Made by a program: the position numbers and the translations under genes. Of a DNA stretch of 33,809 nt, positions 3-9,755 are shown one piece after another. The stretch is from positions 1-33,809 of the forward strand of contig SUXX01000027.1 of the NCBI GenBank assembly GCA_015060735.1, read 5' to 3'. Position 1 is the first letter of the stretch. Every line of letters begins with the position of its first letter. The DNA comes from Bacteroides sp. Its GTDB lineage: Bacteria; Bacteroidota; Bacteroidia; Bacteroidales; Bacteroidaceae. The notes beneath the pieces were generated by a model. That model was not told where the DNA came from and did no database searches. It was given only the letters and a program-made list of their open reading frames with translations.

Positions 3-329
3 GAAAAACTTAATGGTGAAATGGCAGATCCTAAAAAATGCACAGTCAAATTGAATGAAACACTTGAGGTTAGCATAACCTCAAAGGGAAATGGATATGT
101 AGGAATTCGCCATTTTAGTTATAAAGGACAATGTAAATATTCTGCATATCCATATTCAAACACCCAAGAGTATAGAGAGATCCTTAAGAAATATCAGTAT
201 GACACATCTCAAGATGCGTGGATTGGGCAAAAATCATTCAATTGTTATACTGGAGAAAATGTGGAAAAAGTAGTTAATTCGATAGTGGAAGAAGTAGCGA
301 AAATCAAAAAAGAAATAGAGATGATTTGA
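3..329 (+). CDS. Hypothetical protein, 3' part of a gene cut by the window edge
   Basis: The reading frame is open from the first bases of the window to a TGA at 327-329, so the first ATG (position 21) is probably internal and the true start lies upstream. The visible part is about 108 residues, rich in Lys, Tyr and Ser. It has a beta-rich first half (VEL/ISITSKG, YVGIRHFSY) and an amphipathic C-terminal helix (roughly the last 25 residues, many Glu, Lys and Val). I do not recognise the family. Nothing suggests a signal peptide or membrane segment. It precedes the HAD gene by 20 bases on the same strand and shares its AT-rich composition, so it probably belongs to the same accessory block. 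Coding status is likely but function is unknown. Confidence 0.55.
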   Translation, partial: EKLNGEMADPKKCTVKLNETLEVSITSKGNGYVGIRHFSYKGQCKYSAYPYSNTQEYREILKKYQYDTSQDAWIGQKSFNCYTGENVEKVVNSIVEEVAKIKKEIEMI

Positions 330-886: not shown

Positions 887-922
887 GCAACCTCTGCCCT
901 ATTTCGGCAGAGGTTGCTTTTT
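887..922 (+). terminator. Rho-independent terminator after the HAD gene
   Basis: A perfect 12-bp inverted repeat (GCAACCTCTGCC at 887-898, GGCAGAGGTTGC at 906-917) with a 7-base loop is followed by TTTTTA. It lies 27 bases after the HAD stop. It also sits inside the longest possible frame of the next gene (open from an ATG at 852), which shows that the ATG at 852 is not the real start of the polymerase-like gene. Confidence 0.9.
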
Positions 923-965
923 ACTTTGCAGTGATTATAGTAATAAACTATTGAAATCACATCAT

Positions 966-2297
966 ATGAGAGCTTGTAGTTTAGCACATTTGAATGTTCC
1001 GGCTATTGATATTATTAAAGGAATGGGGAACGAAAAGAAAAATAATGAAGACAATTATTTGGAATATCTATCTTTTGTCAAAGCAAAACAAATATACGGA
1101 GATTTGCTTCCAAAAGAAGTTTTAGACAGACTTAAGTATGAATTACAAATCATCAAACATAGAGGTGCCTCGGGATATTTCTTATTTATACATGATGTAG
1201 TTAATACAGCTCAATCAGAACTTGGCGTTTGGATTGGCCCTGGACGAGGAACTGCTGCAAGTAGTCTTCTATGCTATTGTTTGGGTATTACAAAGATTGA
1301 CCCTTTGAAACACGATTTATTGTTTGAGCGATTCCTAAATCCAGACGGAATAACGTTTCCAGACATTGATATAGACACCGATAATGAAGGAAAAGAGCGT
1401 ATCATATTATGGCTTCAAAAAAAATACGGAAAAGAATGTTGTGCTCATATTGCCACTGGAAAAGATTTACATCAATGTGGTTTTGTTGTAGCTGATAAAC
1501 CTATCACAAATTGGGCATCCATTTCAATACTTGATATTGAAGACTCTTCTGGCAAACAGAAAAGAATAAATTGTGTTCAATATAATGATATTAAATCATT
1601 AGGTCTTATCAAGTATGATTTTATAAATCTTGAAACATTAACACAATTGAAAGAGATTTGTGGGTTAGTCAAAATGAAAAAAGGCAAAGATTTAGATGTT
1701 GAGAAAATTCCAATAAATGATAATAAAACGATGGATTTATTCCAAAGAGGTCATACAGATGATATATTTCTGTTTAGCTCTAATGATATGAAAAAGTATT
1801 TGCAAGAGTTTAAACCAACAAGTTTCGAGGATTTAGTGATATTAAATTGTCTATATCGTCCAGGTTCAATGGATGATATTGCAGCAGTTATTAAACAGAA
1901 ATATTCCACGAAGCCAATTGAATACATAATCCCTTGTATGAAAAGTGTTCTTCACAATACTTATGGTATTATTGTTTATCAAGAACAAATAATGATGCTT
2001 TCACGTTTGATTGCGGACTTTAACAAGAGCGAAAGTGCCTTACTGAGAATGGCCATAGGGATGTTTAAAAAAGAAATACTTCCTGCTTTGAGAAATCAAT
2101 TCATAAGAGGTGGAATAAAGAACGGATATAAAAAAACAGCATTGGAAAAACTATGGAATGAAATAGAAAGTAAAGGGAGGTACATATTTAATAAATCACA
2201 CTCAGTTTGCTACACTTGGCTAGCCTATCAAATGGCTTACTTAAAAGCTAACTACCCAAAAGAATTTGTACAAGTAATGGAGAAATATCATTCATAA
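966..2297 (+). CDS. Minimal DNA polymerase III alpha-like protein (no PHP, thumb or C-terminal domains)
   Basis: The C family polymerase palm is clear: GYFLFIHDVVN, then GPGRGTAAS, LLFERFLNP and PDIDID. A second palm part follows with KYDFINLETLT, and then the fingers (LFQRGHTDDIF, LYRPGSMD, VYQEQIMML, FNKSHSVCY, AYLKANYPKEF). The three catalytic aspartates equivalent to E. coli DnaE D401, D403 and D555 appear present (codons near 1368, 1374 and 1617). Only 81 residues separate the last two, against 152 in E. coli, so a thumb-sized segment is missing. There is no N-terminal PHP domain, and the protein stops where the fingers end, without HhH, OB or tau-binding parts. From the ATG at 966 it is 443 residues; 1023 is another start. 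The frame is open from 852, but a terminator at 887-922 rules that start out. TTACTTTG at 921-928, one mismatch from the -7 consensus, could drive it. It may be a functional miniature enzyme or a decaying remnant; the intact frame favours the former. Confidence 0.8.
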   Translation: MRACSLAHLNVPAIDIIKGMGNEKKNNEDNYLEYLSFVKAKQIYGDLLPKEVLDRLKYELQIIKHRGASGYFLFIHDVVNTAQSELGVWIGPGRGTAASSLLCYCLGITKIDPLKHDLLFERFLNPDGITFPDIDIDTDNEGKERIILWLQKKYGKECCAHIATGKDLHQCGFVVADKPITNWASISILDIEDSSGKQKRINCVQYNDIKSLGLIKYDFINLETLTQLKEICGLVKMKKGKDLDVEKIPINDNKTMDLFQRGHTDDIFLFSSNDMKKYLQEFKPTSFEDLVILNCLYRPGSMDDIAAVIKQKYSTKPIEYIIPCMKSVLHNTYGIIVYQEQIMMLSRLIADFNKSESALLRMAIGMFKKEILPALRNQFIRGGIKNGYKKTALEKLWNEIESKGRYIFNKSHSVCYTWLAYQMAYLKANYPKEFVQVMEKYHS

Positions 2298-2310: not shown

Positions 2311-2655
2311 ATGAGTAAGAAAAAGTATAAACATTGGGAAAAAGAGACATCCAATGATGAAATGCCTTTAAATTGGAGTCACAAACACGACTTTCCAATA
2401 GATGAAATATGGGGTACCTATCATACGTTGGCACGTCTTATAGTACCACGCTTACAAGCATTTAAGGCATTAGACAAGCATGGATATGCACCAGATTTCA
2501 ATAATATGCAAGAATGGAACAAGGCTATTCAAAAAATGATAGATGCGTTCGAGTTGTTGAAATATTCAGGTTCTGTACAATCTAAACAAGATCAAGAAAC
2601 AATCAAAGAAGGTCTTAACTTATTTTGCAAGAACTTCTGTAATATTCGGGACTAA
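2311..2655 (+). CDS. Hypothetical 114-residue protein, phage-like
   Basis: The gene starts 13 bases after the polymerase-like gene, with a purine-rich stretch (TTGAGGATAG) just before the ATG. It encodes a soluble, charged protein with a basic N-terminus (MSKKKYKHWEK), a central helix around LARLIVPRLQAFKALDKHGYAP, and then W-x(5)-KMIDAFELLKY and a C-terminal LFCKNF. The spacing of 'PRLxxFK...GYP...W...M..AFE...GL.LF..NF' resembles a small protein family I associate with tailed gut phages, where it lies near structural genes. This is recall, not a search, and no function is known to me. Co-orientation and close spacing suggest co-transcription with the polymerase-like gene. Confidence 0.6.
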   Translation: MSKKKYKHWEKETSNDEMPLNWSHKHDFPIDEIWGTYHTLARLIVPRLQAFKALDKHGYAPDFNNMQEWNKAIQKMIDAFELLKYSGSVQSKQDQETIKEGLNLFCKNFCNIRD

Positions 2656-2701: not shown

Positions 2702-3135
2702 ATGGAAAATTCTGAAATGAAAGAATCTTATTTGAGCGAAAAATACCTTAATGGTTACCAAGAAGCATGTAAGGTTATTATTGCAGGAGGACGTGATTTT
2801 GATGACTATAAGTACATGTCTTCAGAGTTGACTGAATTATTTGAGAATTCGGCCTATTTCAAAGGGATAACAATTAAAATAATTTCAGGTATGGCAAAAG
2901 GAGCAGATTCCCTTGCCTCCGTTATGCAGATGAACATAAATTGACGAAAATTCTTTTCCCTGCAAATTGGAAAGCATATCCTCGTATAGCTGGTTTCCTA
3001 CGGAATAATGATATGCTAAGTATTGCAACTCATCTAATCGCATTCTGGGATGGAAAATCAAGTGGAACCAAACACATGATTGATATAACACAAGAAAAAG
3101 GTATTCCAACATGGATTTCTAAATATAAAAAATGA
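2702..3135 (+). pseudogene. YspA-like SLOG-family protein (DUF2493), frameshifted
   Basis: Two adjacent frames together make one SLOG protein. The first (2702-2944) holds KVIIAGGRDFDDY and IISGMAKGADSLASV, the nucleotide-binding Rossmann-like signatures of YspA/DUF2493. The second (from about 2924 to 3135) holds ILFPANWKAYPRIAGFLRN and AFWDGKSSGTKHMID, the second half of the same family. The break is at GTT/ATG, 2921-2926. Inserting one T after 2923 would give SVYADEHKLTKILFP, which is what family members have, so one base appears to be missing. Repaired length would be about 144 residues, normal for the family. No slippery heptamer is visible, so a real deletion or a sequencing error is likelier than programmed frameshifting. 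SLOG domains bind nucleotide-derived ligands. The second-half stop overlaps the next start (ATGA at 3132-3135). Confidence 0.8.
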
Positions 3136-4139
3136 AGTTCCAAGAATTACTACAATCAGTTGATTTTAAGAAAGTGGCATTAGCTTTCGAAAGAATGTAT
3201 CCAGATGACAAGCACATGCTTCCCTTTCTTAAATGTCATTATGACATATTGTGTCATATCACACCTATTTATGATGAAAATGCTAATGCACAAGAATGTA
3301 GGATTTCATATATTTATGATGAAATAGTCAACAAGTCATATCTTAGTGCATTTCCTTTAGAAGGTGATAAATGGAGTGCAAGCCTATGCAAAGAAATTAT
3401 AATTGACTGTGATGTAAATGCTACCAAGGAGGAAATTGTAGCATGTTGTTTATGGCATACTTCCTTTTGGGGCTATACAGAAGAACAATTATCAGAAACC
3501 GCAAAAGACTTTAATATCTATAGTGATAAAGCCGATATAGAGATTAGTTTAATTGAATTAACTGGAAATTTACAGGAACTTGAAAAACTAGGTTGTAAAA
3601 TAGATTCTTTGCCTACATATACTGATGTCAAAAGTATAGTTAAAATGAGAGCAAATCTCAAATACTCAAGATGGAAACAAAAATATATAAAGAAACACAT
3701 AAGAAATCGTATGTTTAGACGAGATTTTCTTAGAACAGAACATTATAATTATATAAATAGTATAGCGTGTTTTATATTGGATATTTGCAAATATAGTTCC
3801 AATAGAGATAACCATCTGTTACTGGATTTTTGCAAATTGTTTCAATCAAAAAGATTTGCTGCTTATTCATATCAATCACGTACATATGGTAAAAGCGATA
3901 GTGCAGAGTATCTCATAGAACTAATAACCCGGTATAATGCTTTTGACAAAGAATACATATTTTCAAATCTTATTTTATGTATTGAAAAAGCATCCATTGA
4001 TTTGACATTGACAACATGTGAGCAAAATTTATGTGACTGTATTTGGACATTATGTCCAAATGGGACTAATAGAACAATAATTACTGTAAATCCATCGCTG
4101 AAAAGTGAACTTAAAATTATTGTTGCTTTTTATGAATAA
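3132..4139 (+). CDS. Hypothetical 335-residue protein, coupled to the SLOG gene
   Basis: The start codon overlaps the stop of the SLOG reading frame as ATGA, typical of translational coupling. The protein begins MKFQELLQSVDFKKVALAFE and has YPDDKHMLPFLKCHYDILCHITP, a Cys/Trp-rich CCLWHTSFWGYTEEQ motif around residues 105-120, and a very basic helix (KYSRWKQKYIKKHIRNRMFRRDF) near residues 180-205. A C-terminal half has scattered cysteines. No signal peptide or transmembrane segment is visible. It resembles an uncharacterised Bacteroidales family that begins the same way; DUF6557 is my recollection and unverified. The basic stretch could bind nucleic acid, but that is inference. Composition is AT-rich (28% G+C at 3781-3840), like the rest of the block. 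Confidence 0.7.
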   Translation: MKFQELLQSVDFKKVALAFERMYPDDKHMLPFLKCHYDILCHITPIYDENANAQECRISYIYDEIVNKSYLSAFPLEGDKWSASLCKEIIIDCDVNATKEEIVACCLWHTSFWGYTEEQLSETAKDFNIYSDKADIEISLIELTGNLQELEKLGCKIDSLPTYTDVKSIVKMRANLKYSRWKQKYIKKHIRNRMFRRDFLRTEHYNYINSIACFILDICKYSSNRDNHLLLDFCKLFQSKRFAAYSYQSRTYGKSDSAEYLIELITRYNAFDKEYIFSNLILCIEKASIDLTLTTCEQNLCDCIWTLCPNGTNRTIITVNPSLKSELKIIVAFYE

Positions 4140-6647: not shown

Positions 6648-6674
6648 CACCGCGTTTTAAATAACAGAAGAGTG

Positions 6675-7928
6675 ATGAAGAAAATTACAATGTCTTTATT
6701 GGCCATGTTGGTTGCCGTAAGTGGCATGGCACAAATTAATTTGGGAAAAGATATGAGTCTCAAAATTTACGGCCAGGTTCGTGCGGATATTTACTACAAC
6801 AGTCGCGACAATGTTCAGTCGGTAGACGGATTGTTTTATATGTACCCGAAGGATGAAGTGTTCGATGCCAATGGCAAGGATATCAACAGTGGGGATAATA
6901 GTAATATGTATACGGCCTATTCACGTTTAGGGTTGGATTTTGTCGGTCCGATGTTGGGCAAAGCCAAGACTTCGGCTAAGGTAGAACTGGACTATCGTGG
7001 AAATGGGAATGATAATCTCCATACATTCCGCTTGCGTCAAGCTTATTTTAACTTGGATTGGGGAAAGTCCAAGTTGTTGGTTGGTCAGACATGGCATCCG
7101 TTCTTTGGCGAAGTATCTCCCCAAATCTTGAACTTGAATACTGGTGCCCCGTTCCAGGCATTTAGCCGTGCACCGCAGATTCGTTATCGTTACAACAACG
7201 CTGCTCTTCAGTTGACAGTTTCTGCTTTGTGGCAGTCTCAATACAAATCGTATGGTCCGACAGCTAACGACGGTAGTGGCAATAGCCGTATTCAGGCCCC
7301 TCATAAGAATTCAAACATTCCGGAATTGGCTTTAGGTATCGATTATAAGGCTAACGGATGGATTGCGGGTGTAGGCATGGATGTGCTTTCCATAACCCCT
7401 CGTACACAAGCTATTGGAGAAGATGGAAAGACATATAAGGTAGACGAACGTCTGACAACAGTTTCTTATGAAGCTCATGTAAAATATACCGGAAATAACA
7501 TTTTCTTTGCAGCCAAGAGTACTTTGGGAGCTAACTTCTCGCATGTATCTATGCTGGGTGGATATGCCGTGAAGGCACAGGATGCCAAGACCGGCGAAAG
7601 AGAATATACGGCTTTCCGTAATTCCAGTAACTGGATTAACTTGGTATATGGTAAGAAATGGAAACCGGGTATCTTTATAGGTTATATGAAAAACTTGGGA
7701 ACTTCAGACGACATGTTAGGTTCTACTGTTTATGGTACAGGAACGAATTTGGATCAGTTGTTGAGCACAACATTCGAATTGACCTACAATGTACCTCATT
7801 GGAAGATTGGAGCAGAATATAACTTGTCTACTGCATGGTATGGAAAGAACCAGAAGGATGGTAAGGTAAAGGATACTCATTCGATAGCGAACAATCGTTT
7901 GGTATTGACTGCTATTTATTCGTTCTAA
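6675..7928 (+). CDS. Outer-membrane beta-barrel, porin-like protein
   Basis: The protein has 417 residues with a signal peptide MKKITMSLLAMLVAVSGMAQ and probable cleavage after AQ. The mature part has alternating polar/aromatic strands throughout (SLKIYGQVRADIYYN, YSRLGLDFVGP, TFRLRQAYFNLDW, KLLVGQTWHPFF). It ends ...LVLTAIYSF, a C-terminal aromatic beta-signal recognised by the BAM machinery. The 'GQTWHPFFGE' segment and overall length recall the DcaP/porin-like outer membrane proteins. No TonB box or plug domain is seen, so passive diffusion of small solutes is the likely role, by inference. An upstream in-frame Met at 6645 falls in the promoter and is rejected. A bidirectional terminator separates it from convergent dnaX. 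Confidence 0.82.
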   Translation: MKKITMSLLAMLVAVSGMAQINLGKDMSLKIYGQVRADIYYNSRDNVQSVDGLFYMYPKDEVFDANGKDINSGDNSNMYTAYSRLGLDFVGPMLGKAKTSAKVELDYRGNGNDNLHTFRLRQAYFNLDWGKSKLLVGQTWHPFFGEVSPQILNLNTGAPFQAFSRAPQIRYRYNNAALQLTVSALWQSQYKSYGPTANDGSGNSRIQAPHKNSNIPELALGIDYKANGWIAGVGMDVLSITPRTQAIGEDGKTYKVDERLTTVSYEAHVKYTGNNIFFAAKSTLGANFSHVSMLGGYAVKAQDAKTGEREYTAFRNSSNWINLVYGKKWKPGIFIGYMKNLGTSDDMLGSTVYGTGTNLDQLLSTTFELTYNVPHWKIGAEYNLSTAWYGKNQKDGKVKDTHSIANNRLVLTAIYSF

Positions 7929-7943
7929 TAGAATTATTATCAT

Positions 7944-7974
7944 AAAAAAAACCTCCCCATCGGGAGGTTTTTTT
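7944..7974. terminator. Bidirectional terminator between porin-like gene and dnaX
   Basis: AAAAAAACCTCCC (7944-7956/7) pairs with GGGAGGTTTTTTT (7962-7974) around a short CCATC-type loop, giving a T-tract on both strands. It serves the porin-like gene on plus and dnaX on minus; the dnaX stop codon lies right at its edge. Confidence 0.9.
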
Positions 7975-9755
7975 TATGATAGTTCCAATTTCAGTATTTC
8001 TCTTAATTTCTGAAGTTTCGGATTCTTTTGGCTCATCAGTTGGAAGCGTTCCACTTGACTAAAGGCACGAACGACTTCTTTTTCTTCGAGTACCCGTACA
8101 GTCATGGTTATTCGTCGGTTATGCAATTTTTCACGCATATAGGTTTGTATGGTCGGAATCATTTGTGTCATGTACTTGGCTGCCATGTCATTGTCTACTC
8201 CAATTTCGAAAACCGTATCGTTCAGCAGTTTGGGTGATGTGTTTTTCATTCGGGCTGCGTTGGCTTTCTCTTCAGGGGGAAGATTTACGGCATATTCCAA
8301 CCAGTAATGTTTCAAATCCCTTTCGTTGAATATGTGATCTTTATATTCAGCTTCCTTCTTTATGATAGGTTGCGGTTGGCCGGATGGCGTACTCTTTATG
8401 TCTCCTTGTGTCGTTTGTGGGTGACGGATGGATATACCAATCTGGCTCGCCTTGAGGACCGGAATCTTTCGCTCTTCTTTTCGGTCGGGCAGCGGGCTTT
8501 TTCGTCCCATGTATCCATTGTTGGCTGTTGGTTGAGCCGGTGCAGCAGCAACAGTAGCCTGAGGCTGCGGTTGCGGAGCGGCTATTTGTGCCACTTGCTG
8601 CTTGAATAGGGGTTTTAATCTTTTCCTAGGGCTACGCCCACCAACCAAGTCGTCACTGTCGGGAAGGGTTAGTTGGGCACATTGTATCAAGGTCAACTCC
8701 ACGAGCAGACGTTTGTTCTTGCTGGTGCGGTAATTCAAATCACAGTCGTTGCATAATTTCATGGCCTTGTACAAGAATTTTTGATCGCATCGTTGGGCTT
8801 GAGCCTGATAGCGTTCGCGAATGCTGGCACCTACCTCCAACAAAGGCAGGGTGATAGGATCTTTGCTGACCAGTAAGTCACGGAAATGTGAGGCCAGTCC
8901 AGTCATGAAATGATGTCCATCGAATCCTTTTTTCAGTATGTCATTCAGTAGCAAGATGGCTTCCAGCACTTGGTTGCTCAAGAAGTGGTCTGTCAATTTG
9001 AAGTAATATTCATAATCCAGTACGTTCAAGTTTTCAATCACTCCTTGATAGGTGATATTGCCATTCGTGAAACTGGCCACTTGATCGAAGATGGAAAGGG
9101 CATCACGCATACCACCGTCTGCCTTCTGAGCAATCACGTTCAAGGCTTCGGCTTCAGCCTGAATACCTTCCTTGTTTGCTACATGTTGCAAATGGGTTAC
9201 TGTATCCTGTACGTTGATGCGGTTAAAATCATAAATTTGGCATCGGCTCAAAATGGTTGGCAGAATCTTATGCTTTTCCGTTGTTGCCAAAATGAAGATA
9301 GCATGATGAGGCGGCTCTTCCAGTGTCTTCAGGAAAGCATTGAACGCTGACTGCGAAAGCATATGTACCTCATCAATGATGTAAACCTTGTACTTACCGA
9401 TTTGGGGTGGGATACGTACTTGGTCTATTAGCGTGCGGATATCGTCCACCGAGTTGTTCGAGGCAGCATCCAATTCATGGATGTTGTATGAACGCTGTTC
9501 GTTGAATGCCTGACACGATTCGCATTGGTTGCAAGCTTCTCCTTCGGCGTTGGGCGAGAGACAGTTGATTGTCTTGGCGAAGATACGAGCACAGGTAGTT
9601 TTGCCGACTCCTCTTGGTCCGCAAAACAAGTAGGCGTGAGCCAGTTTACCTGTAGCAATGGCATTTTTTAGGGTAGTGGTCAATGCACGTTGTCCTACCA
9701 CCGAATCGAAGGTCGATGGGCGATATTTTCGTGCCGATACAATATAGTTTTCCAT
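7974..9755 (-). CDS. dnaX: DNA polymerase III subunit gamma/tau (clamp loader ATPase)
   Basis: The protein has 593 residues and is the AAA+ clamp-loader subunit. It starts MENYIVSARKYRPSTFDSVVGQ, the conserved DnaX N-terminus. Walker A is GPRGVGKT (46-53), the zinc module has Cys65, Cys75, Cys78 and Cys81, and Walker B is YIIDEVHML (DEVH at 128-131). The sensor-1 region is FILATTEKHKI, with TILSRCQ as the SRC arginine-finger motif. Clamp-loader domain III continues to about residue 370. The rest is a Pro/Gln/Ala-rich linker and a tau-like C-terminal region that should contact the polymerase and helicase. Met codons up to 9797 are in frame but lie at or upstream of the probable transcription start near 9780, so 9755 is chosen. 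I see no convincing frameshift signal for a separate gamma form. Confidence 0.95.
   Translation of the reverse strand: MENYIVSARKYRPSTFDSVVGQRALTTTLKNAIATGKLAHAYLFCGPRGVGKTTCARIFAKTINCLSPNAEGEACNQCESCQAFNEQRSYNIHELDAASNNSVDDIRTLIDQVRIPPQIGKYKVYIIDEVHMLSQSAFNAFLKTLEEPPHHAIFILATTEKHKILPTILSRCQIYDFNRINVQDTVTHLQHVANKEGIQAEAEALNVIAQKADGGMRDALSIFDQVASFTNGNITYQGVIENLNVLDYEYYFKLTDHFLSNQVLEAILLLNDILKKGFDGHHFMTGLASHFRDLLVSKDPITLPLLEVGASIRERYQAQAQRCDQKFLYKAMKLCNDCDLNYRTSKNKRLLVELTLIQCAQLTLPDSDDLVGGRSPRKRLKPLFKQQVAQIAAPQPQPQATVAAAPAQPTANNGYMGRKSPLPDRKEERKIPVLKASQIGISIRHPQTTQGDIKSTPSGQPQPIIKKEAEYKDHIFNERDLKHYWLEYAVNLPPEEKANAARMKNTSPKLLNDTVFEIGVDNDMAAKYMTQMIPTIQTYMREKLHNRRITMTVRVLEEKEVVRAFSQVERFQLMSQKNPKLQKLREILKLELS

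Follow-up and report, generated by a model that had tools for sequence, protein, structure and literature searches.

What is a DNA polymerase good for once it has lost its PHP and thumb domains? The question is raised by contig SUXX01000027.1 of a Bacteroides sp. genome (the window, by which we mean the whole stretch of 33,809 nucleotides), which encodes a DnaE-type protein of just 443 amino acids. We show that this protein is not a decay product and is kept by purifying selection in two genera. By sequence comparison, it descends from a family of short (~820-residue) DnaE proteins of Bacteroidales, and the core of a replicative polymerase appears to have been put to a different use. The parts of the gene are:

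966..2297, forward strand: palm-plus-fingers DnaE-type protein, 443 amino acids, without PHP, thumb, HhH, OB or tau-binding domain
996..1001, forward strand: point of PHP loss, where the family's first ten codons (ending in HLN) abut the start of the palm (VPAID)
1362..1370, forward strand: first and second catalytic aspartates (E. coli D401 and D403)
1455..1460, forward strand: point of thumb loss, a predicted turn joining two palm strands
1617..1619, forward strand: third catalytic aspartate (E. coli D555); this half of the palm is under relaxed selection
2043..2066, forward strand: fingers helix LRMAIGMF, with the equivalent of Taq R766 kept and those of R767, K771 and K772 changed to Met, Met and Phe
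2181..2204, forward strand: Y..FNKSHS segment, matching E. coli Y754, S759 and the steric gate H760

A sequence-only reading of the window had placed the palm and fingers motifs in one unbroken frame. Indeed, the frame is open from 852 to the stop codon at 2297, and GPGRG, PDIDID and KYDFINLETLT all lie in the 443-residue protein. A Pfam scan (E up to 0.1) found PF07733 (E = 1e-48) and PF17657 (Pol III alpha finger domain, E = 2e-44) and nothing else, so that models for PHP, HhH and OB had no match. When compared with Taq Pol III alpha by phmmer, the protein matches two blocks, Taq residues 381-496 and 573-842; by this alignment, the segment absent between 496 and 573 is the thumb; that reading had assigned the piece missing between the second and third catalytic aspartates to the thumb and nearby palm. 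It had also noted that the spacing of these two residues is shortened relative to E. coli (152, from residue numbers), which is correct, but the value is 83 rather than 81. Across the two thumbless copies that we describe below the spacing is 83-84, and in 15 longer relatives it is 160-166. The recommended fold overlay gave a good superposition: the predicted model (predicted local distance difference test score, pLDDT, of 89) has the palm and fingers fold of the C family and overlays on Taq Pol III alpha at 2.1 Å over 424 residues.

The domain order of C-family polymerases is PHP-palm-thumb-fingers (PMC3666897), and PHP is stated to be universally present (PMC12926913). The window protein departs from this order in having neither PHP nor thumb. 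Relative to the replicative DnaE1 proteins of Taq (2hpi/3e0d), Mycobacterium tuberculosis (5lew) and E. coli (2hnh), it is also without the HhH, OB and C-terminal domains, including the clamp-binding region, that follow the fingers. The sequence-only reading had listed these absences together. However, the window protein ends where the ~820-residue family ends, and judging from the alignments the whole family lacks HhH, OB and tau-binding domains. Thus, what is special to the window gene is the loss of PHP and thumb. The same genome encodes a full-length DnaE elsewhere (an open frame of 1275 codons).

The search for homologues of the same short length, which had been suggested as a check, turned up a second one, L038, in a metagenome-assembled genome from roe deer colon. 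This genome also belongs to the Bacteroidaceae but to another genus. The L038 protein is 79% identical to the window protein, has the same two gaps and the same main neighbours, and is one residue longer at the thumb junction. We rejected assembly error, as two separate genomes share both deletions at 79% identity, and chance, as the second genome carries the same structure.

Comparing the two genes gave dS = 0.48, dN = 0.11 and a ratio of nonsynonymous to synonymous rates (dN/dS) of 0.235 (bootstrap range 0.176-0.321), or 0.229 on 431 shared codons. These are Nei-Gojobori estimates from one gene pair, and values for segments are rough. Among 17 relatives (136 pairs), 79 pairs have a dS below 0.9; for these 79 the median dN/dS was 0.162 and the maximum was 0.232, which puts the thumbless pair at the top of the range. 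In a drift simulation, both frames were still open in none of 4000 runs at each of three divergences. Given the dN/dS, the second genome and this simulation, we reject decay; the argument that an intact frame speaks against it was borne out, with a dN/dS far from 1 and the same short architecture in L038. Selection is uneven along the gene. Relative to medians from 38 pairs of relatives with dS of 0.3-0.7, the N-terminal half of the palm has a dN/dS of 0.16 (median 0.13), the C-terminal half 0.70 (median 0.12), and three fingers segments 0.20, 0.20 and 0.08 (medians 0.23, 0.14 and 0.14). In the C-terminal half, which holds the third aspartate, selection is relaxed. Over the last 68 codons, the two proteins are 96% identical.

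Both copies keep the equivalents of D401, D403, D405, D555, K553, R709, Y754, S759 and H760 (we take D405, K553, R709 and Y754 to be the E. coli numbers of the matched residues), so the catalytic aspartates are retained, as had been claimed. The equivalents of D401, D403 and D555 are residues 133, 135 and 218 of the 443-residue protein (171, 173 and 256 if counted from 852). These three aspartates are described as absolutely conserved in the C family (PMC3919608), and the role of S759 and of the steric gate H760 is taken from PMC8485763. Retention of the aspartates and the steric gate points to nucleotide binding or to chemistry. The basic residues of the fingers differ from those of DnaE1: the equivalents of Taq R767, K771 and K772 are Met, Met and Phe in both copies, and a nearby Asp is Ala. 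Among 14 columns where at least 90% of 46 other sequences have a basic residue, these three basic residues are the sole losses. We presume that this helix (LRMAIGMF) holds the incoming deoxynucleoside triphosphate; in the excerpts that we consulted on the helix, contact roles for its residues were not found. Across 76 strongly conserved columns, each thumbless copy has 10 substitutions and one gap, as compared to 0-7 in the 46 others (leave-one-out), and the GPGRGSAAGS loop is changed differently in each copy. Two longer family copies (L037 and L048) have SPGRG in this loop, which hints that some longer members may be inactive too.

How did the short gene arise? The ~820-residue family, which is not named in the literature that we searched, has PHP, palm, thumb and fingers and the same C-terminal end as the window protein. 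We found 12 distinct complete copies of 809-822 residues (L037/L052, L040, L042-L045, L047, L049-L051, L053 and L033/L118); L041 was read as 792 residues, and L046, L048 and L079 are cut by contig ends. In a FastTree phylogeny, the window protein and L038 pair with support of 1.0 and join 15 longer members (17 tips, support 0.79); with L063 added, support for the group is 1.0, and its neighbours in the tree are the five host DnaE1 sequences of Bacteroidales that were included. The window protein thus shares the family's descent, palm, fingers, start region and end point, and differs in that the family members have their own PHP and a full thumb. It also shares a leader with several of them:

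887..917, forward strand: stem-loop downstream of the HAD gene and ahead of the polymerase start codon, common to several full-length family genes
921..930, forward strand: conserved CTTTG element after the stem-loop, resembling what we take to be the consensus of the Bacteroidales -7 promoter element

The stem-loop and CTTTG are also present in L041, L043, L118 and L050 (the stem is imperfect in L041 and L043), while L040, L047 and L042, which are full-length, have different sequence upstream. The likely true start, at 966, aligns with the ATG used by L038 and by full-length family members. We rejected the longest reading, which starts at 852, because the stem-loop would then be translated. 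The first ten residues, MRACSLAHLN (MKTCQITYLN in L038), correspond to MK..RFVHLN of the family and are followed directly by residues that align with the palm start. At the DNA level, the stretch around CATTTGAATGTTC is common to the window and the full-length start. Because the leader, the start region and the first ten codons are shared with the full-length family, the PHP domain (~295 residues) was removed in frame behind the original start. Several relatives have the string TGTTC at both the PHP start and the palm start. That PHP might be encoded out of frame upstream was rejected, as just 106 bases, which match the family leader, separate the HAD stop from the start codon. The thumb (~76-80 residues) is, from the alignment, likewise missing in frame; its junction is placed less precisely, since the sequence on either side has diverged and L038 carries one extra residue. 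We are highly confident of this descent, of the two losses and of continuing selection.

Another family member, L039 (61-2385), keeps PHP and an open frame and has lost about half of the thumb. It is intermediate in the D403-D555 distance (120), and it appears that the thumb was reduced at least twice within the short DnaE family. Thumb reduction within the C family is also described for PolC, Thermotogae DnaE3 and Bacteroidetes DnaE2 (PMC3919608); the thumb is described there as reduced in those proteins, whereas in the window protein it is absent.

Some full-length copies are broken. One is split inside the thumb, with its halves on opposite strands ~13 kb apart (L129:6446-8183, forward, and L130:1500-3305, reverse); each half is fused to coding sequence that we read as WG repeats, and the first half shifts frame near 6661. 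In Parabacteroides distasonis An897 (L064, ~7818-8844), just the C-terminal part of the polymerase remains and the largest open frame is 216 amino acids; the exonuclease, WYL and downstream genes are still present beside it.

We looked for further thumbless members in several collections. From 192 pattern matches and 138 relatives, the best 80 were kept, and the thumb region was in view in 74 of these. The thumb is missing in L038 alone and about half present in L039; the remaining 72 carry at least 48 extra residues at this place. In overlapping searches of 149, 61, 399, 393, 139 and 399 genomes, with matches listed only below E values of 1e-10 to 1e-95, just the genomes of the window (G000) and of L038 (G814) stood at the top among the matches listed, which is where a thumbless copy should rank. 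These searches include 61 genomes of the window's genus, with no further thumbless copy, and 139 of the L038 genus. Searches of viral_contigs returned no thumbless member, and among phages and plasmids no record reached 60% identity (individual records were not inspected for the thumb). BFVD lists other short phage models resembling Pol III alpha, for example of 374 and 536 residues, at 15-19% identity. Among the papers listed by our literature searches, we saw no description of a PHP-less or thumbless DnaE or of DnaE in defence islands.

The genes around the polymerase are:

3..329, forward strand: incomplete open reading frame at the contig end, grouped with frames of L038 and L042
350..859, forward strand: protein of the HAD_SAK_2 family, which immediately precedes the polymerase in L038 and full-length L041 too
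2311..2655, forward strand: ORF114, beginning 13 bases after the polymerase stop, a recurrent neighbour of the family
2702..3135, forward strand: YspA/SLOG-type gene, in two frames here and intact in L038 (3210-3638)
3132..4139, forward strand: DUF6557 protein, with relatives near family members L053, L101 and L118

In L038 the order is HAD_SAK_2, polymerase, ORF114 (also 13 bases after), one extra gene and SLOG; DUF6557 follows SLOG in the window only. Part of the window's island may be decaying, or the contig may have an error at SLOG. Both contigs with thumbless copies end within 1 kb upstream of the locus.

What, then, does the protein do? The sequence-only reading offered either a minimal polymerase with a dedicated partner or a remnant kept for another purpose. 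Two findings, the loss of basic residues from the fingers helix in both copies and the relaxed constraint on the palm half that carries the third aspartate, make the evidence lean towards another purpose and away from a partnered polymerase. Extension of a duplex is likewise disfavoured, since thumb, PHP and the basic patch are lost and half of the palm is relaxed. We tentatively prefer, at somewhat less than even confidence, that the protein is a non-replicating, nucleotide-binding accessory of a mobile island. The starting point, which is well supported, is a short DnaE of ~820 residues from which PHP and the entire thumb dropped out in frame, with leader, start codon and fingers retained. 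The palm and fingers that are left would still bind nucleotide, aided by the metal-binding aspartates and the steric-gate helix, and would no longer hold or extend primer-template DNA. The gene is probably co-transcribed with ORF114, and its product might, for example, detect or sequester a nucleotide or a DNA end while a phage or plasmid replicates. There is a precedent in ImuB, a non-catalytic relative of polymerases that is retained as a partner within the DnaE2 mutasome (PMC12926913); however, ImuB belongs to the Y family and is described as catalytically inactive, whereas the window protein keeps its aspartates.

Several observations weigh against an accessory role. An active enzyme would need all of the catalytic aspartates and the steric gate, and none of these has been lost. 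ORF114 has a poor predicted model (pLDDT 60), its only PHROG match is of unknown function, and its dN/dS between the two genomes is 0.35 (0.165 for the HAD gene). The SLOG gene next door is in two frames, and with only two sequences the dN/dS of segments is noisy.

The bolder proposal, that loss of PHP and thumb turned a replicative C-family polymerase into a stand-alone, DNA-independent enzyme of an anti-phage island that binds or transfers nucleotides, is speculative, and we would give it a minority chance. The main rival to the accessory role, though unlikely, is that the protein is an active minimal nucleotidyltransferase, which would attach a single nucleotide or a few of them to a protein, a small molecule or the end of a single strand, with no grip on a duplex. 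The intact catalytic residues would suit such an enzyme, but the Met, Met and Phe in the fingers helix, the relaxed half of the palm and the loop altered differently in each copy argue against it.

We think it quite unlikely that the protein is a template-directed, gap-filling polymerase for which ORF114 or another protein stands in for the thumb. The close spacing of ORF114 in both genomes, its relatives near some full-length genes, the half-lost thumb of L039 and the variable size of C-family thumbs (PMC3919608) fit this idea. However, ORF114 relatives occur near L040, L041, L042 and L053, and because full-length relatives with an intact thumb (L040 and L041) also carry one, ORF114 is hardly a thumb substitute. 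Also, in E. coli Pol III the PHP domain contributes to both activity and stability (PMC3666897), and the basic residues of the fingers helix are changed. Finally, a remnant that is heading for loss and still coding by inertia might explain the substituted conserved columns, the broken SLOG gene and the broken full-length copies (L064 and L129), but is improbable given the upper bound of 0.321 on dN/dS, the frames that stayed open at dS of 0.47-0.48 as they never did in simulation, and the conserved final 68 codons.

A protein of the bolder kind proposed above would be the first C-family member known to us without PHP and thumb. A natural protein that is under selection without these domains is a ready test of what palm and fingers do alone, and it also bears on the link between the bacterial replicase and small nucleotidyltransferases.

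The full-length family usually lies in restriction-type islands. We examined 13 loci for which 6 kb or more of sequence is available upstream (the polymerase of L064 is broken and that of L079 is cut at the end). In 12 of them, an exonuclease gene (matching RNase_T in Pfam and DEDDh in PADLOC) precedes the polymerase on the same strand, and a WYL gene is seen in 11 as well. These module loci are L040, L041/L136, L043 (L129, L130), L044/L131, L045/L132, L047/L135, L049/L133, L051/L134, L053, L064, L079 and L118; the L049 stretch ends at the exonuclease. The other locus, L050, has neither gene within 7 kb, and its genome has no exonuclease match. Neither the G000 (~81% complete) nor the G814 genome has an exonuclease match; as G000 is incomplete, the gene may still be present there. 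For WYL regulators of the BrxR family, to which those of the present loci may or may not belong, co-localization with known defence systems is given as 48% (PMC9122601). In PADLOC-DB 2.0 (E of 0.001), no model matches the polymerase of the window or of L040, and seven of the eight neighbour proteins that were submitted match at least one model, some weakly. The WYL protein, the DEDDh exonuclease, variable restriction-type genes and a ~820-residue DnaE without a clamp-binding region may together form an undescribed defence locus, and the family would then be a possible unrecognised part of phage defence in Bacteroidales. Between exonuclease and polymerase, the 12 loci have GmrSD-like matches (6 of 12), an AAA_5 protein with a McrBC-family partner (4 of 12), which by our reading of the Pfam matches are McrB and McrC, and a PLD protein (8 of 12); L079 has none of these. 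In L043 the exonuclease and the polymerase are 28 kb apart, with another, split copy between them.
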